Of a DNA stretch of 64,000 bases, positions 31,410 through 44,592 are shown piece after piece. Within the stretch, counting starts at the first letter, position 1. Every line of letters starts with the position of its first letter. The stretch is from Pandoraea horticolens (GTDB lineage: Bacteria > Pseudomonadota > Gammaproteobacteria > Burkholderiales > Burkholderiaceae). The notes under the pieces were generated by a model. It was not told the DNA's origin. It did not search any database and saw nothing but the letters and a program-made list of their open reading frames with translations. The stretch spans positions 186,001 through 250,000 of the forward strand of contig NZ_CABPSM010000003.1 of NCBI RefSeq assembly GCF_902459555.1, in the 5' to 3' direction. A program made the translations under genes and the position numbers.

Positions 31410-34400
31410 ATGAATCCGTCCCGCCCGTTTATTCTCCGACCGGTCGCCACATCGTTGCTGATGCTGGCGATCCTGCTTGCCGGTTTCGTCGCCTACCGGT
31501 TGCTGCCGCTCTCGGCGCTGCCGGAAGTCGACTATCCGACCATTCAGGTGGTCACGCTCTATCCGGGGGCGAGTCCGGACGTCATGACCTCGTCGGTCAC
31601 GGCTCCGCTGGAGCGTCAGTTCGGCCAGATGCCGGGCCTGAACCAGATGTCATCGACCAGCTCGGGCGGCGCATCGGTGATCACGTTGCAGTTCTCGCTC
31701 GACCTCGGGCTCGACGTCGCGGAACAGGAAGTGCAGGCCGCCATCAACAGCGCCAGCAACCTGCTGCCGAGCGATCTGCCGATGCCGCCGATCTACAGCA
31801 AGGTCAACCCGGCCGACACGCCGATTCTGACGCTGGCGATCATGTCGAAGACCATGCCGTTGCCCAAGCTGGAGGATCTGGTCGACACCCGTGTCGCGCA
31901 AAAGATCTCGCAGTTGCCCGGCATCGGACTGGTGAGCATTTCGGGCGGACAGCGCCCCGCCGTGCGTATTCGGGTCAATCCGCGTGCGATCACGTCGTAT
32001 GGGCTCAATATCGAGGACGTTCGTACGTCCATCGCGGCGGCCAACGTCAATCAGGCGAAGGGGAGTTTCGACGGTCCGCTGCGGGCCTCGACCATCGACG
32101 CCAACGACCAGCTTGCCTCGGCCGACGAGTATCGCAATCTCGTGATTGCCTACAAGAACGGCGGTCCGATCCGGCTTTCCGACATTGCCGACGTTGTCGA
32201 TGGCGCCGAGAACACCAAGCTCGCCGCGTGGGCCGATACCACGCCGGCCATCGTGCTGAACGTGCAGCGCCAGCCCGGCGCGAACGTGATCGAGACAGTC
32301 AACAAGGTCAAAGCGCTGTTGCCGCAGTTGCAGGCCGCGTTGCCGGGCAGCATCGACGTCAAGCTGCTCACCGACCGAACCACGACGATTCGCGCCTCGG
32401 TCTCCGACGTGCAATTCGAACTCATTCTTGCCGTCGCCCTCGTGGTGATGGTGATCTTCCTGTTCCTGCGCAACGTCTCGGCAACCATCATCCCGAGTGT
32501 GGCCGTGCCGCTGTCGCTGGTCGGCACGTTCGGCGTGATGTATCTGGCGGGCTTTTCGATCAACAACCTGACGCTCATGGCGCTCACCATCGCGACCGGT
32601 TTCGTGGTCGACGACGCCATCGTGATGATCGAGAATGTCGCGCGTTACATGGAGCAAGGGGAAAAGCCGTTGCAGGCGGCGCTCAAGGGGGCGGAGCAGA
32701 TCGGCTTCACGATCATTTCGCTCACGTTCTCGCTGATCGCCGTGCTGATTCCGCTGCTGTTCATGGGCGACGTCGTCGGTCGCCTGTTCCGCGAGTTTGC
32801 GATTACGCTGGCGGTGTCGATCCTGATCTCCGCTGTGGTCTCGCTCACGTTGACGCCCATGATGTGCGCGAAGCTCCTGCGCCATGTGCCGGAAGAGAAG
32901 CAGGGCAAGTTCTATCGTAAGACCGGCGAGATCTTCGAGCGCATCATCGCGAAGTACGGCGAATGGCTCACGTGGGTGCTCGACCGTCAGTTCGCGACGC
33001 TGCTCGTCGCGCTGGGCACGCTCGTGCTCACGGTGCTGTTGTACATGTGGGTGCCGAAGGGCTTCTTCCCGGTGCAGGACACGGGGGTGATTCAGGGCAT
33101 CTCCGAAGCGCCGCAGTCGATCTCGTTCGCGGCGATGGGCGAGCGGCAGCAGGCGCTGGTTGCTGCGGTGCTACGAGATCCGGCCGTCGAATCGGTGTCG
33201 TCGTTCATCGGCGTGGATGGGGTGAACGCCACGCTCAACAGCGGGCGTCTGCTCATCAACCTGAAGGACAAGGGTGTGCGCGGGATCAACGCCTCGGAAG
33301 TCATCCGGCGCATTCAGCCTGAAGTCGCGAAGGTGCCCGGGATCACGCTTTACATGCAGCCGGTTCAGGATCTGACGATCGAAGACCGTATCAGCCGCAC
33401 GCAGTACCAGTTCACGCTGCAAGACCCCAGTCTGGATACGCTCGGCGTCTGGGTGCCGAAACTCGTCGACAAGCTGCAACACGTACCGCAACTGGCGGAC
33501 GTCACGAGCGATCTGCAAGTCAACGGCCTCCAGGCGTACGTGGAGATCGACCGCGATACCGCGAGCCGTCTGGGGGTCACGCCGTCCGCCGTCGACCAGA
33601 CGCTTTACAGTGCGTTCGGCCAACGGCTGATTTCGACGATCTATACGCAGGCGTCGCAATATCGAGTGGTGCTCGAAGTGGCGGACGACTTCCGGCGCGG
33701 GCCCGAAGCGCTCAAGGGCATTTACGTCGCGTCGTTGTCGGGCGTGCAGGTGCCGCTCACGTCGTTTGCGAAGATCGTGGAAAAGCCCACGCCGCTGGCG
33801 ATCAACCATCAGGCGCAGTTCCCGGCCGCGACGATCTCTTTCAACCTCGCCAAGGGCGCATCGCTGGGCGATGCCGTGAAGGCGATCACTGCGGCCGAGC
33901 AGTCCATTGGTCTGCCGGTGAGTACACAGACGACGTTCCAGGGCGCGGCGCAAGCCTTCCAGGCGTCGCTCTCGAACACCTTGTGGCTGATTCTCGCGGC
34001 GGTCGTGACCATGTATATCGTGCTGGGCGTGCTCTACGAGAGCTACATCCACCCGATCACGATTCTGTCGACGCTGCCGTCGGCCGGCGTGGGTGCGCTG
34101 CTGGCGCTCATGGTCTCCGGTAACGACATCAGCGTCATCGCGATCATCGGCATCATTTTGCTGATCGGTATCGTGAAGAAGAACGCCATCATGATGATCG
34201 ACTTCGCGCTCGAGGCGGAGCGCCAGCATGGGATGGCGCCGCGCGAGGCCATCTATCAGGCGTGTCTGCTGCGTTTCCGTCCGATTCTGATGACGACGAT
34301 GGCGGCCGTACTGGGCGCGCTGCCGCTCATGCTGGGCTCCGGGGTGGGGTCCGAGTTGCGCCAGCCGCTGGGTATCACGATGGTGGGCGGGTTGATGGTC

Positions 34401-39410: not shown

Positions 39411-39528
39411 TGCGCCGGCTGGGCACCCTCATCGCTGGCCGGTCGCGTTCGCCTTCGACCGGCAAGCGCTGCGCACCTCATGTCGTCCGGCTACGCATTT
39501 TCCGGCGCTCGCAACGCGTGGATCACTA

Positions 39529-39568
39529 AGCGTGGCTAACAAAACCATGTCATCCGACATCTGGGGGA
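39529..39568 (+). repeat. Left copy of a perfect 40-bp inverted repeat bounding the O-acetylation islet
   Basis: This 40-bp stretch matches the reverse complement of 43526-43565 base for base. It starts AGCGTGGCTAAC and ends CATCTGGGGGA. The sequence outside and inside it does not continue to match, so the two copies are bounded repeats rather than part of a longer duplication. It lies in the gene-free 262 bp between the efflux lipoprotein gene and the islet. It is probably the end of a mobile element. Confidence 0.9.
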
Positions 39569-39672
39569 CATCGTCAACCGCCGGATTGTTGAACTGTATT
39601 CTGTGGCCCACAGTGTGCTGAGACCTCAGCGTCCTGCAACCGCGTTAAACGCCTGGCGCGCTGTAGGGCTTT

Positions 39673-40869
39673 TCAATTTCTGCAAAGCGCCACCATATTC
39701 TTCGGTGGGCTATTGCCAAGGGTTTTGATATTTCGTTGGACAATCTGCAAGGCAACCACAGTGGGCTTGCGTCGGCGAACTTCATCGCCGTCGATATCTC
39801 GTCCAAGATACGTCCACGTGTTGGCGAAGTCTTCGGCGATGAACTGCATGAGCTCGCCACTGAATGAGTCTTTGTAGAGCAGAAGTCTCCCGTGTCCGGA
39901 GCGGTTCTCGCTGAATACCGAGTCGTTGCGTTGAGGCGCGTCTACTGGAGCGCCCACCCATTGGGAAAGCCTCGGCGTGCGCTTCTCAAAGTGGGTGTTG
40001 ACGTCTTTGAAGTATCCTGGGAGAGACAGCAAAGAGACGGCGATGTCCCCCTGGTCGAACGGCGATTGCGTGACTGTCCAGGCGTCCAAGGTCGCCGCCG
40101 GGGCTGACGGAATGATGCCGTCCCGTGCGAACCGATTGGCCACCGCCTGGTAGCCATAGAACGCCCCTAGGGAATTCCAGTGCGTATCCGTACGCTTGTA
40201 CATTTCGTATGGTGAAGTCCGCTTTGCGTCTACTAGGGCGGGTCTGAGATCCACTAGACGGAGTTCCGCGAGTTCGACCTTGAGATAGTCGACTAGCTGG
40301 TCCAACTGCGTGGTGACGCCGGCACGTACGCGAACGCCAAGTTGTTCTGGGTAGACATACTGTTTATCTGGCGCCACGATGAAATAGAACGGAATGCTGC
40401 ATGCCGCCAATGCCTTTTGCGTAACGCGCAGATTCTCGGTGATTTCGCGTAACTGCCCCTGCGAGAGTGGATCCTTGCCCTGCAGATCAGCAAAATGAGG
40501 CTGGCCGGGCACGTAGTATTGATCGTAGAAAAGCCACTGGTTAGGGCCAACGACGACATCCTGGTTCGTTGGAGATCCGGTGCGTGCCATCTGGAGCCAC
40601 GACCCGTAATACACTAGTGCGTCACGCATGCCGAAGCGATCGCTGAACCAGCGCTCGAGCCGCTGCAGCGAATGAAGCGACAAGTCGGGGAGGGGTTCCA
40701 GTACTCGGTTTTCGTGAAGCGGGGCGGGGGTGAAACTGGCGCGACCAAACCAGGCAATGGGGAGCGCGATAAGCGCGAAGAATACGAGCGGCACGGCCGC
40801 TCGGTTCAACTTCCTGAGCCATGTGTAGGACCGTTGTGCCCGTCGGCGAAGTTCTGCGTTTTCAAGCAT
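39673..40869 (-). CDS. AlgX/AlgJ-like SGNH-type O-acetyltransferase
   Basis: The 398-residue protein has one N-terminal membrane anchor (about residues 27-40). Its periplasmic domain carries AlgX/AlgJ catalytic residues: Asp228 and His230 in RTDTHWNS and Ser335 in LYKDSFSGEL. It takes acetyl groups passed by the membrane-bound O-acyltransferase encoded just upstream and places them on an exopolysaccharide or other envelope polymer. The gene follows that partner after six bases. The sequence is visibly lower in GC than the flanking genes. No polymer biosynthesis gene is in the window, so the acceptor is unknown. Confidence 0.85.
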   Translation of the reverse strand: MLENAELRRRAQRSYTWLRKLNRAAVPLVFFALIALPIAWFGRASFTPAPLHENRVLEPLPDLSLHSLQRLERWFSDRFGMRDALVYYGSWLQMARTGSPTNQDVVVGPNQWLFYDQYYVPGQPHFADLQGKDPLSQGQLREITENLRVTQKALAACSIPFYFIVAPDKQYVYPEQLGVRVRAGVTTQLDQLVDYLKVELAELRLVDLRPALVDAKRTSPYEMYKRTDTHWNSLGAFYGYQAVANRFARDGIIPSAPAATLDAWTVTQSPFDQGDIAVSLLSLPGYFKDVNTHFEKRTPRLSQWVGAPVDAPQRNDSVFSENRSGHGRLLLYKDSFSGELMQFIAEDFANTWTYLGRDIDGDEVRRRKPTVVALQIVQRNIKTLGNSPPKNMVALCRN

Positions 40870-40875
40870 GTCGGA

Positions 40876-42306
40876 TCAGAAGCGGAAGTAAATGAACGGG
40901 TTGTACTGCCCGAGTGCGATCGACATAGCTGCAAAGATTAGCGCAGGCGCAACAAATGCTGCCGCCACGAAGCCGTCGACGTTGCGCGCGAGGAGCCAAT
41001 TGCGGACCGGCGCGAAGCGTTCAAGTGCCCAAGGGTAGAAGCCAGCCGCCAACACGACGGCGGTCGGTATAAGCCAACCAAGGTGAGTAGAAAAGAGCAT
41101 CGACACGGTTACTGAAGGTTCGGTAGCCGTTGGCATGCCGACGAGCGCACCGAAGTAGTTGAGGGCGTGCGCGGTGGTGTCGCTTCTAAACAGCACCCAC
41201 GTCAACATGAAAGCCAGAACGACGTAGCCGTGGCGAGCCCATCGCCAGACCCCGGATCTCGAAACGACGTTCGATGGCACGATCTTTTCCAGTGTCAGAA
41301 AGGTACCGTGCGCGGCCCCCCAAAGCAGGAAATTCCAAGTTGCGCCGTGCCAGAATCCAGTGAGAAGGAAGACGATCCAGAGGTTGCGCAGCGTTCTGCG
41401 GGCGCCGTCTTTATTACCACCGAGCGGGATGTACACGTAGTCACGGAACCACGTCGACAGGGAGATGTGCCACCTGCGCCAGAAATCTTGCATCGACTCG
41501 GCGGCATACGGGTAATTGAAGTTCTCGGGAAACCGGAAGCCAAACATGCGCGCAAGTCCAATGGCCATGTCGGAATACCCAGAGAAATCAAAGTAGATCT
41601 GCAGCGTGTAGCACAGGAGGGAAAACCAGGCGACGGACGCGGACAATTCGCCGGTCGGCACGCTAAAGCCCGCGTCGGCCACGATCGCGAGCTGATTGGC
41701 GATAAGCACCTTTTTCGCGAGACCCATCGTGAAGCGCAGCGCCCCGGCAGACACATCGTCGAGGCGGGCCACGCGTGCCCGTAGTTGCGACTGGATGTCT
41801 TTGTATCGGATGATCGGGCCTGCGACCAGTTGGGGAAACAGCGTGATGTACAGACAGTAGTCGACGATGCTTCGATTCGGCCGTGCGTTTCTCCGATAGA
41901 TGTCGACCAGGTATGAGATCGCGTGGAAGGTGTAGAACGAAATGCCAATGGGCAAAGGCAGTGGTCGCAGCACGAGTGGGGCCACACCAAACGGGGACAA
42001 AATCGCGTTCAGATTGCCAACGATGAAAGCAGCATACTTGAACACGCCCAATATGAAGAGGTTGATGGCCACGCCCCACCCAACCATTCTCAGCCGATTC
42101 TTTGCCCGATCGATGCTGATGGCCAAACGGAAGTTGACTCCGATGGAGACGATCATCAAGATCAAGAAGCGAGGTTCGCCCCAGGCATAGAAGACGATAC
42201 TAGCCAGCGCGAGCGTGAAATTGCGCCACGGACGGGGCGTCAAGAAGTACGCGGCCAAAGTGATTGGGAGAAATAATCCCAAAAAGGCGATGCTGCTGAA
42301 AACCAC
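40876..42306 (-). CDS. AlgI-type MBOAT O-acyltransferase
   Basis: I place the start at the GTG giving MVFSSIAFLGLFLP, because that is the classic AlgI beginning and AGAGGA lies eight bases upstream; the ATG three codons earlier touches the Shine-Dalgarno. The 476-residue protein has about 11 hydrophobic helices. The MBOAT signature has FWRRWHISLSTWFRDYVYIPLGG and the active-site His in LTGFWHGATWNF. It moves acetyl groups from a cytoplasmic donor across the inner membrane for the SGNH partner. It lies inside the 40-bp inverted-repeat islet. Confidence 0.9.
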   Translation of the reverse strand: MVFSSIAFLGLFLPITLAAYFLTPRPWRNFTLALASIVFYAWGEPRFLILMIVSIGVNFRLAISIDRAKNRLRMVGWGVAINLFILGVFKYAAFIVGNLNAILSPFGVAPLVLRPLPLPIGISFYTFHAISYLVDIYRRNARPNRSIVDYCLYITLFPQLVAGPIIRYKDIQSQLRARVARLDDVSAGALRFTMGLAKKVLIANQLAIVADAGFSVPTGELSASVAWFSLLCYTLQIYFDFSGYSDMAIGLARMFGFRFPENFNYPYAAESMQDFWRRWHISLSTWFRDYVYIPLGGNKDGARRTLRNLWIVFLLTGFWHGATWNFLLWGAAHGTFLTLEKIVPSNVVSRSGVWRWARHGYVVLAFMLTWVLFRSDTTAHALNYFGALVGMPTATEPSVTVSMLFSTHLGWLIPTAVVLAAGFYPWALERFAPVRNWLLARNVDGFVAAAFVAPALIFAAMSIALGQYNPFIYFRF

Positions 42307-42664
42307 GGGGGACATCCTCTGGATTTATTGATCTGGTCCAAGCACGCGTGCTAAATGTGGACGTGATCTTCTACTAATGCCGTACACGTTCGGGCCGTAT
42401 TGTAATGCGTGCCACTGCGATGCCGGAAGTCGACGCAGGCGTCCGAACGATAGTTGGCTGTCAGCCAGAGAGGGGGGCGCAGGGCCGCTTTGTTGGCGTT
42501 TGCGATGTGGCGTGTGCCGCAAACGCCCAGTCCAAGAATCCGTTGATGGAATCCTTCACGGGGATATCACAACGTGGAAGGAAGATTCGCGCCAGTCTCC
42601 ATCCGTATTATGATGTTCGAGGCTGGTCGGCAGGGGGCTGGCCCCCAATCAAAATTTCATTGAC
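42307..42664. other. 358-bp gap between divergent islet genes
   Basis: The AlgI-type gene and the FMN reductase gene are transcribed away from each other. No supported gene is present. A short hairpin GGGGGC-TG-GCCCCC (42633-42646) lies just before the FMN reductase start; its two-base loop makes it doubtful as a true RNA structure. Confidence 0.4.
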
Positions 42665-43270
42665 ATGAAACTCTTGGCTATTTCCGGTAGCTCACGCCGG
42701 AACTCCACCAATACTGCGTTGCTGATGGCGATGAAGGGCTTCGTCCCGGCCGACGTCAAGCTATCTGTTTTTCATCGCCTGGACACCTTGCCCGTCTTCT
42801 CACCTGACTCGGAGGGAAACAAGACACCGCCGCAAGTCATCGAGTTTCTGGAACTCGTATCAGCTTCCGACGGCATCATCATCTCGAGTCCCGAGTATGC
42901 AAGAGCGATTCCAGGTGGACTGAAAAATGCAATCGACTGGATGGTTTCTCGATTTGAAGCCGTTGGAAAGCCCATAGCGCTTGCACACGCATCTCATCGC
43001 GGCGAAGAGATGCTGGCATCTCTGCGGCTTGTACTTTCGACCGTTAGTGACGGCTTCCTTGAACCCCTGTTCCTGCGGGTCCCGCTCATCGGTAAATCTC
43101 CGGAGGAGATAGCCGATATGCTGTCTCTACGCGGGTATGGGTCACAAATATCGGCGTTCTTGTCTAACTTCGTAGAAGCAATCCGTCTAAATCACGGCGA
43201 ACAGGCTGGTTCCCTTGATTCAGATGCTGAGGGGGTATTCGCGACAACGAAGGTGCTCAATGAATCGTGA
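42665..43270 (+). CDS. NADPH-dependent FMN reductase (NAD(P)H-dependent oxidoreductase)
   Basis: The 201-residue flavodoxin-like protein starts with GSSRRNST (residues 8-15), the FMN phosphate-binding loop, and has SPEYARAIPGGLKNAIDWM, the characteristic FMN reductase block. It reduces FMN or quinone-like substrates with NADPH. It is inside the inverted-repeat islet and its last codons overlap the edge of an IS5-family remnant on the other strand. GC is lower than in neighbouring core genes. Its link with O-acetylation is not obvious. Confidence 0.85.
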   Translation: MKLLAISGSSRRNSTNTALLMAMKGFVPADVKLSVFHRLDTLPVFSPDSEGNKTPPQVIEFLELVSASDGIIISSPEYARAIPGGLKNAIDWMVSRFEAVGKPIALAHASHRGEEMLASLRLVLSTVSDGFLEPLFLRVPLIGKSPEEIADMLSLRGYGSQISAFLSNFVEAIRLNHGEQAGSLDSDAEGVFATTKVLNES

Positions 43271-43499
43271 GCAGACGATGGCGCAAACCAACGAAAGCAG
43301 TGCCTGATGGGTATTGAGACTTCGTTCGAACCGGATGCGCAGCTTTCCAAAACCGGTCAACTAGGCCTGTGAACAACACGAACAGAATGCCGTTCGACAC
43401 AGCACGGTCACCAACGTGTGGCCGCCCGCCGTTGGGCGAGTGGCTTTGTGTTGGCAGCAACGGCTCGAGCGTTTCCCGCAACGCCTTCTCTGATTCGTC
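43257..43499 (-). pseudogene. IS5-family transposase remnant with internal deletion
   Basis: On the minus strand, one frame beginning at 43499 reads an IS5-type N-terminus (ALRETLEPLLPTQSHSPNGG, then RAVSNGILFVLFTG). After about 43360 the frame loses the match, but a second frame reads an IS5-type C-terminus (FGKLRIRFERSLNTHQALLS, then LVCAIVCSRFIE). The catalytic middle is missing. Thus the transposase lost its DDE core by deletion with a frameshift. A 40-bp inverted repeat copy lies 27 bp upstream. Confidence 0.7.
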
Positions 43500-43525
43500 T
43501 TATTGTCATCCACTTTCAAACGTAT

Positions 43526-43565
43526 TCCCCCAGATGTCGGATGACATGGTTTTGTTAGCCACGCT
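43526..43565 (-). repeat. Right copy of the perfect 40-bp inverted repeat
   Basis: This is the reverse complement of 39529-39568 with no mismatch over 40 bp. It lies directly next to the IS5-family remnant, so it may be the end of that element, with the distant copy being the trace of a second copy in opposite orientation. Confidence 0.9.
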
Positions 43566-43953
43566 AAATCCGATCCCGGTGTTTAAGGTAATTCCGAACT
43601 TCACAATCGGAATGCCGGAAACGCCTGCTGTAAATCCTCCCAATGCCGGTGACGCGAGTAGCACGAACTGCCACGTCATGCGGCTAAGCAATTTCACCTC
43701 TGAGCGAGTCCCGTCAAGCAGTTAGGTGGCAGTGCCCGCTCTATCGGGCAGCATGCGGGCGTCGCGCCCATTGACCACACCGCGTGGCAAGAATGCCCGC
43801 CCGAATCGACTATGTGACGTTTCCCATCCAGTCGGCATGATCCCTTTTTGCCAGAATGAACGCGCTTCGATGCGATGACAGGCGCGAAGCACCGTACGCG
43901 CATTGCGGCGGTGACGGTGCTGTCAGATGACGAAAAAAGAGAGGGGGGCAACG
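43566..43953. other. Gene-poor gap after the islet
   Basis: About 390 bp separate the repeat from the RcsB-like gene. A small minus-strand frame (ending at 43506 and starting at 43697) reads a 63-residue hydrophobic peptide through the repeat, but it has no clear Shine-Dalgarno or family match. No other gene is supported. Confidence 0.35.
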
Positions 43954-44592
43954 ATGACGATCAATGTCGTGGTCGCAGATGACCATCCGATTGTGCGTTA
44001 TGGAATACGACGTTTGCTCGAAGAGCGGGAAATGATCCATCTGGTCGGCGAGGCGGGCAATTCGTCGGAACTCGTGAATTTGCTGGCCAAGGCGCCCTGC
44101 GACATTCTGGTGACCGATTTCTCTATGCCGGGGGGGAACTTCAAGGACGGGCTTTTTCTTATCGGTTACGTGCGCCGGTATTTTCCCAACATCAAGATCA
44201 TCGTCGTCACGATGCTCGAAAACCTGGCGATTCTTCGCGGCATGCTCAAGCTTGGGGTGCATTCGATTCTCTCGAAGCTCGACGAGCAGAGTTCGATTGC
44301 CGACATCGTTTGTGTGGTGGCGGACGGCAGCCGATACATTCCGGCGGGGCTGGCGACAAGGCTGCACGACTCGGTGGTCGACGACACCGAGATCGACGCG
44401 TCGAAACTCTCGGGCCGCGAGGTGGAGGTAGTGCGGCTGTTCGTCTCCGGCCTCACGATCAGCGAAATTGCGTTCCAGCTCAGCCGTAGTGTGAAGACGG
44501 TCAGTTCGCAGAAAACCAACGCCATGCGCAAGCTCGGGCTGGACCGTGACGTCGATCTATATCACTACGCCACGCGCACTGGCATTACCTGA
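43954..44592 (+). CDS. RcsB/NarL-type response regulator
   Basis: The start was set at MTINVVVADD because GAGGGGGG lies about eight bases before it; an ATG nine codons upstream is open. The 212-residue protein has receiver residues near Asp9-Asp10 with phosphoacceptor Asp55 in LVTDFSMPGG. The C-terminal LuxR-type helix-turn-helix is LSGREVEVVRLFVSGLTISE. It resembles RcsB or BvgA-type regulators. No kinase is adjacent. It is convergent with the FUSC gene. Confidence 0.9.
   Translation: MTINVVVADDHPIVRYGIRRLLEEREMIHLVGEAGNSSELVNLLAKAPCDILVTDFSMPGGNFKDGLFLIGYVRRYFPNIKIIVVTMLENLAILRGMLKLGVHSILSKLDEQSSIADIVCVVADGSRYIPAGLATRLHDSVVDDTEIDASKLSGREVEVVRLFVSGLTISEIAFQLSRSVKTVSSQKTNAMRKLGLDRDVDLYHYATRTGIT

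Follow-up and report, generated by a model that had tools for sequence, protein, structure and literature searches.

In Tn903 the two arms are inverted. Tn903 and its relatives, composite transposons belonging to the IS903 group within the IS5 family, hold their cargo between paired copies of an insertion sequence (IS) of that family, and TnaphA1-pIE545 is reported to have a target duplication of 9 bp and two directly oriented IS102 copies (PMC12670165). The unit described here occupies positions 39530-43564 of a 64,000-nucleotide stretch of the Pandoraea horticolens genome (contig NZ_CABPSM010000003.1, positions 186,001 to 250,000; hereafter the window). It likewise has cargo between IS5-family ends, and it is very probably a decayed composite transposon, built from two inward-reading IS5 copies and inserted before the split from Pandoraea communis. 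Set against TnaphA1-pIE545 as described there, the unit appears to belong to another IS5 group, has inverted remnant arms and a 3-bp duplication, and carries genes predicted to act in glycan acetylation.

Two further sets of known systems bear on the locus. Elements of the IS427 group from Paracoccus are, in the part of the source that treats them, 832-865 bp long with short inverted repeats, and some have two overlapping transposase frames (PMC3281130). For the cargo, the closest counterparts are AlgI with AlgJ or AlgX, PatA-PatB and the Wss cellulose proteins; as in those examples from the excerpted account (PMC12148441), an MBOAT gene here adjoins an SGNH gene.

Inverted IS5-family ends of the unit

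The window was initially described as containing a low-GC islet bounded by a perfect 40-bp inverted repeat with sharp ends. Both statements about the repeat held: 39529-39568 and 43526-43565 are complementary at 40/40 positions, and the match breaks immediately beyond either arm. Since a TAA triplet is duplicated, the element proper spans 39530-43564 and the inverted match is 39 bp long. The boundary features are as follows.

39527-39529, no strand: left TAA of the target-site duplication; relatives with an empty site, e.g. G005, G003 and G026, have one TAA here
39530-39568, plus strand: left arm, the outermost 39 bp of a transposase-proximal (IRR-type) end from an IS5-family element, with the remainder of the IS gone; it fits the IRR-type end, not the opposite end, of the full-length elements L050, L051 and L052
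43238-43564, minus strand: right arm, an IS5-family remnant with its outer end intact, about 540 bp lost internally, a decayed inner end and a broken transposase, as aligned to the full-length elements
43526-43564, minus strand: outermost 39 bp of this remnant, which match the left arm perfectly in inverted orientation
43565-43567, no strand: right TAA of the target-site duplication, by comparison with relatives

No other perfect inverted repeat of at least 25 bp was found in the window. The genome search proposed in the first-pass annotation, allowing up to 3 mismatches, located the 40-mer at the two arms only within the 6.0-Mb genome, and the 36-bp core of the repeat was absent at the same tolerance from all 31 other genomes of the genus.

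The identity of the ends emerged from more distant relatives. With up to 3 mismatches, the 26-bp end occurs at 13 places in 9 of 299 genomes of the family, in 2 of 25 genera, and the 101 bp around the right end gave nine matches among plasmid records at E values up to 10. Those in Pandoraea (P. faecigallinarum) and Cupriavidus (Cupriavidus taiwanensis) led to IS5-family elements; short matches on Klebsiella and Exiguobacterium plasmids (E 0.2-3) were judged to be due to chance. Three full-length relatives of 864-866 bp were delimited by end-to-end alignment; such elements are present in Pandoraea, in Cupriavidus and in a further genus of this family. L052 (genome G211), an element with matching ends, contains a DDE transposase in a single open frame with the PF13340 (DUF4096) and PF01609 (DDE_Tnp_1) domains, which places the ends in the IS5 family. 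In L050 and L051 the transposase is split into two overlapping frames, as in some IS427-group elements in the portion of that description available (PMC3281130). L051 and L052 are bordered by TTA on both sides. In size, frame layout and short duplications the element thus appears to resemble the IS427 group, for which the same portion gives duplications of 2 bp (4 bp for ISPha1; PMC3281130), compared with an apparent 3 bp for the unit (TAA), L051 and L052 (TTA).

The opposite ends of a single IS are alike over only about 17 bp and then diverge. Both arms in the window extend past this point as the transposase-proximal type; they are therefore the same IS end twice, in inverted orientation, and since one IS is insufficient to supply them, the pair calls for two copies. 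What survives of the right copy is the 327-bp remnant, which aligns to the full element with a gap of about 540 bp and a decayed inner end, and whose two transposase pieces are 67% and 63% identical to the L052 transposase; of the left copy there is the 39-bp end. The remnant transposase, with its large internal deletion and a stop, is non-functional, and what we claim is accordingly limited to a relic. It would be conceivable that the repeat has a regulatory or structural role unrelated to transposition and that the islet arrived by homologous recombination, as its presence in just two copies in the P. horticolens genome might indicate. This we regard as very improbable, since it is contradicted by the match of the ends to full-length IS5 elements, by the attached transposase remnant and by the duplicated TAA.

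Two side observations concern repeats elsewhere. An orphan IS5 end on contig C9 of the same genome (L039 3018-3052) is 91% like the window repeat and lies a few hundred bases past a run of imperfect repeats of about 200 bp, discerned by eye. In the window, a sequence of 25 bp or more recurs in direct orientation at 34012 and 37230, inside two adjacent large genes; the second encodes an AcrB-type pump and the first is similar by eye, so that such a repeat is expected for paralogues.

Insertion site and age of the insertion

Genomic comparison covered 32 genomes of the genus, with one genome per species for P. horticolens and P. communis. The gap between the genes flanking the unit was measured in 26 genomes besides that of the window; the remaining five (G017, G023, G025, G028, G030) had no flank match and stood outside this comparison. 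The insertion point is intergenic, between an outer-membrane gene of an RND-efflux system and a response-regulator gene. Removing 39530-43564 together with one TAA restores the sequence of the relatives, and G005, G003 and G026 have uninterrupted ATCACTAAAT. In 25 of the 26 relatives the unit is absent and the flanking genes are 475-597 bp apart, compared with 4,411 bp in P. communis and 4,520 bp in the window. At these 25 unoccupied sites the aligned insertion position reads TAA in 11, CAA in 9 and other letters in 5 (hand count from the alignment). The proposal that the islet was acquired as a unit with its element ends still visible is thus supported by the TAA duplication, the empty sites and the identification of the repeats as IS5 ends: inverted IS ends are bordered by a target duplication, and relatives have the site unoccupied.

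Between flanks that correspond to those of the window, the occupied relative, P. communis, has the MBOAT and SGNH genes (94% DNA identity) as well as the reductase (93%), with the acetylation operon inverted relative to the window. Because no IS end is present there, a shared insertion is argued from position and divergence. Synonymous divergence (dS) between the window and P. communis is 0.13 for the MBOAT gene, 0.17 for the SGNH gene and 0.18 for the reductase, and 0.17 and 0.09 for the flanking efflux and response-regulator genes, respectively. Cargo dS like that of the flanks fits one insertion predating the split, and the unit is most likely older than its low GC content suggests, having probably entered before the two species separated. 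A possible alternative is that P. communis and the genome of the window exchanged the whole region by recombination, instead of sharing an old insertion. The comparison of nonsynonymous with synonymous divergence (dN/dS) was taken only against P. communis, for the MBOAT and SGNH genes, the first 186 codons of the reductase, the efflux gene minus its first 93 codons and the response regulator. Values against G008, G005 and G013 were excluded from use, and the comparisons of a FUSC gene with P. communis and G005 were set aside as faulty, owing to a stop within the match and dN exceeding dS at 94-99% amino-acid identity.

The P. communis locus also lacks about 20 bp of the left flank and the TAA. 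As the left flank of the window matches that of the relatives, the window form probably does not descend from that of P. communis; most likely, judging from these alignments, the latter has lost its IS ends. Stretches specific to P. communis (L035 3740-3960 and 6650-7060), searched against the 32 genus genomes, matched only P. communis itself and those portions that the window has in common with it, except for two 30-bp matches in G023 and G025 (E 4e-4), so that either orientation of the operon may be the ancestral one. Between its acetylation operon and its reductase gene, P. communis has the start of a reading frame (L035 6690-6830), whose sequence the window shares only up to L035 6750. Among 61 genomes, the window spacer at 42470-42670 was found in its own genome and, over the last 55 bp, in P. 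communis only.

Base composition had been read as a sign of transfer, with the islet poorer in GC than its surroundings. That the islet is low in GC was confirmed (56.2%, against 63.4% for the window), and when the window is sampled at 100-bp steps, 0.7% of the 4,035-bp stretches have a GC content no higher than that of the islet. The step is sharp at the left edge, from 67% to 56%. Outside the right edge the expected contrast is absent: the intergenic DNA has 58.2% GC and the response-regulator gene 56.9%, so low GC (57-58%) runs about 1 kb into core DNA (43568-44592), and GC alone misplaces the right boundary. The GC content of the islet and the GC at third codon positions of the cargo (57-73%, against 75-81% in neighbouring genes) would suit a recent horizontal transfer. 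We nevertheless consider a recent arrival improbable, because the same locus exists in P. communis with flank-like dS and because the homologues in P. cepalis, also at 56-57% GC, are equally low, which makes low GC an old trait of these genes.

Several observations weigh against an old composite transposon. The left arm consists of just 39 bp, and the whole second IS is postulated, not seen. The P. communis locus is without either IS end. The two triplets that border L050 differ (TTA and TAA), so that its duplication is not clean. No second unit with both ends was found in the P. horticolens genome, the 31 other genus genomes or the 299 family genomes, and movement as a unit hence rests on one insertion. 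The 22 matches in the P. horticolens genome to the 267-residue transposase of a relative were all partial, the longest covering 132 residues, and no resident transposase for the unit is therefore apparent. Finally, if the ends predate the split from P. communis, zero mismatches between two 39-bp arms would be expected with a probability of about 0.06 at the intergenic rate, or about 0.002 at the synonymous rate; identity so improbable for an old unit hints that the arms may have been repaired against each other, or that one arm may have arisen later. This identity also lends some weight to a stepwise origin, in which a single IS5 entered the TAA first and the cargo subsequently came to lie within or next to it through recombination or an inversion mediated by the IS, an event that also copied the outer end to the left side. 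The right remnant can be aligned to each terminus of the element, although its inner end has decayed, and the opposite operon orientation in P. communis means that rearrangement within the unit did happen. A stepwise origin requires extra steps, though, with the copied end hitting the target duplication exactly, and the left flank is intact as far as the TAA; we judge it unlikely, if less so than a recent transfer.

For the composite transposon that we prefer, the following course may be envisaged. Two IS5-family copies, inverted and reading inward, would have flanked the cargo, such that both outer ends were transposase-proximal. An IS5 transposase would then have used these outer ends and joined the whole unit into the intergenic TAA, duplicating it, before P. 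horticolens and P. communis separated. Afterwards the left IS may have shrunk to 39 bp while the right IS lost most of its transposase, leaving a unit that would no longer be self-mobile; the P. communis lineage would have lost the IS ends entirely, its acetylation operon now lying inverted relative to the window.

Cargo genes and their distribution

Three genes lie between the arms, and the gene content first proposed (an AlgI-type MBOAT, an AlgX-type SGNH protein and an FMN reductase, next to the broken IS5 transposase) was recovered with family models (PF16822, E 9.5e-20, for the SGNH protein; PF03062, E 1.3e-36, for the MBOAT; PF03358, E 1.2e-26, for the reductase).

39673-40869, minus strand: AlgX/AlgJ-type SGNH O-acetyltransferase; D228/H230 (DTHW) and S335 (KDSF) retained
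40876-42315, minus strand: AlgI-type MBOAT; H323 (FWHG) and the C-terminal FIYFRF, which fits FXYXXF, retained
42665-43270, plus strand: NADPH-dependent FMN reductase-like gene; its final codons extend into the IS remnant

D228, H230 and S335 are invariant in all five aligned SGNH proteins, with DTHW aligning to AlgJ and KDSF to PatB1; H323 and FIYFRF are invariant in all six aligned MBOAT proteins, and FWHG aligns to DltB. The MBOAT His with FXYXXF and the SGNH Asp-His with Ser are residues held in common with the pairs covered in the cited part of PMC12148441, where the FXYXXF tyrosine is given as the carrier of the acetyl group in PatA. By analogy, the predicted pair is expected to pass acetyl from acetyl-CoA to a periplasmic or secreted glycan, the C-terminal tyrosine of the MBOAT relaying it to the SGNH enzyme. 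Unlike the pairs in that part of the account (PMC12148441), the islet has no glycan synthesis gene. The reductase matches chains of chromate reductase, FMN reductase and azoreductase, and would be cargo unrelated to the acetylation pair; its counterpart in P. communis ends at a position aligned with about 43220. With dN/dS of 0.14 (MBOAT), 0.18 (SGNH) and 0.22 (reductase) against P. communis, all three genes look kept by purifying selection.

The first-pass annotation had further pointed to the O-acetylation genes plus the redox enzyme as a module not yet described. Acquisition together found support; the module did not: among the candidates scored in the 32 genus genomes, the two parts are side by side only in the window and in P. 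communis, and at separate places the MBOAT-SGNH pair occurs in at least four further genomes and the reductase in at least six further ones (G001, G014, G015, G023, G025, G030), apart from the pair. These counts are lower bounds, as the survey scored the best nine candidates per genome. The reductase copy of G001 is disrupted, through either a stop or a shift of frame, and in G014 the reductase and the pair are on different contigs. AlgX-family genes occur in 16 of the 32 Pandoraea genomes and are absent from all 14 control genomes, three of which gave matches to the MBOAT model; the divergent, lower-scoring AlgX type of the islet is present in six of the 32 (G000, G010, G008, G014, G019, G028), and in G008, G014, G019 and G028 the divergent pair has other neighbours. 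Contig C8 of the P. horticolens genome holds a further acetylation locus, with one MBOAT and two AlgX-type genes. The relative of the pair in G014 (L049, C15, 203-4301; 58% and 38% identical) adjoins a phage-type integrase gene, which suggests a different carrier for cargo of this type.

The SGNH protein was also used to scan 84,980 genomes, in a search that detects close relatives only and may have omitted the genome of the window; it returned P. communis LMG 31110 (93%) and P. cepalis LMG 31106 (80%). The 4.3-kb islet gave 70 matches among plasmid records, 40 of them in Sinorhizobium and none covering 80% of the islet; the best 20 of the 70 are MBOAT or FMN-reductase genes where annotated. 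Our literature searches found no paper on an IS5-family genomic island in Pandoraea and none on a composite transposon for MBOAT O-acetylation. Occurrence in six of 32 genomes with varied neighbours, IS5 ends here and a phage-type integrase gene in one, leads us to put forward, tentatively, that the divergent MBOAT-SGNH pair could be a travelling accessory cassette of Pandoraea, one that may acetylate a glycan made by the host and brings no glycan synthesis genes of its own.

As an IS5 composite relic the unit is a known kind of mobile-DNA fossil; its cargo is unusual. Supported by a target duplication, unoccupied sites and a relative date, it would present a clear case of an IS that imported surface-glycan modification genes and then died, with the cargo still under selection. 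Should the pair be active, IS-borne gene gain would be linked to a changed surface chemistry in a genus some of whose members are opportunists in the lungs of people with cystic fibrosis.

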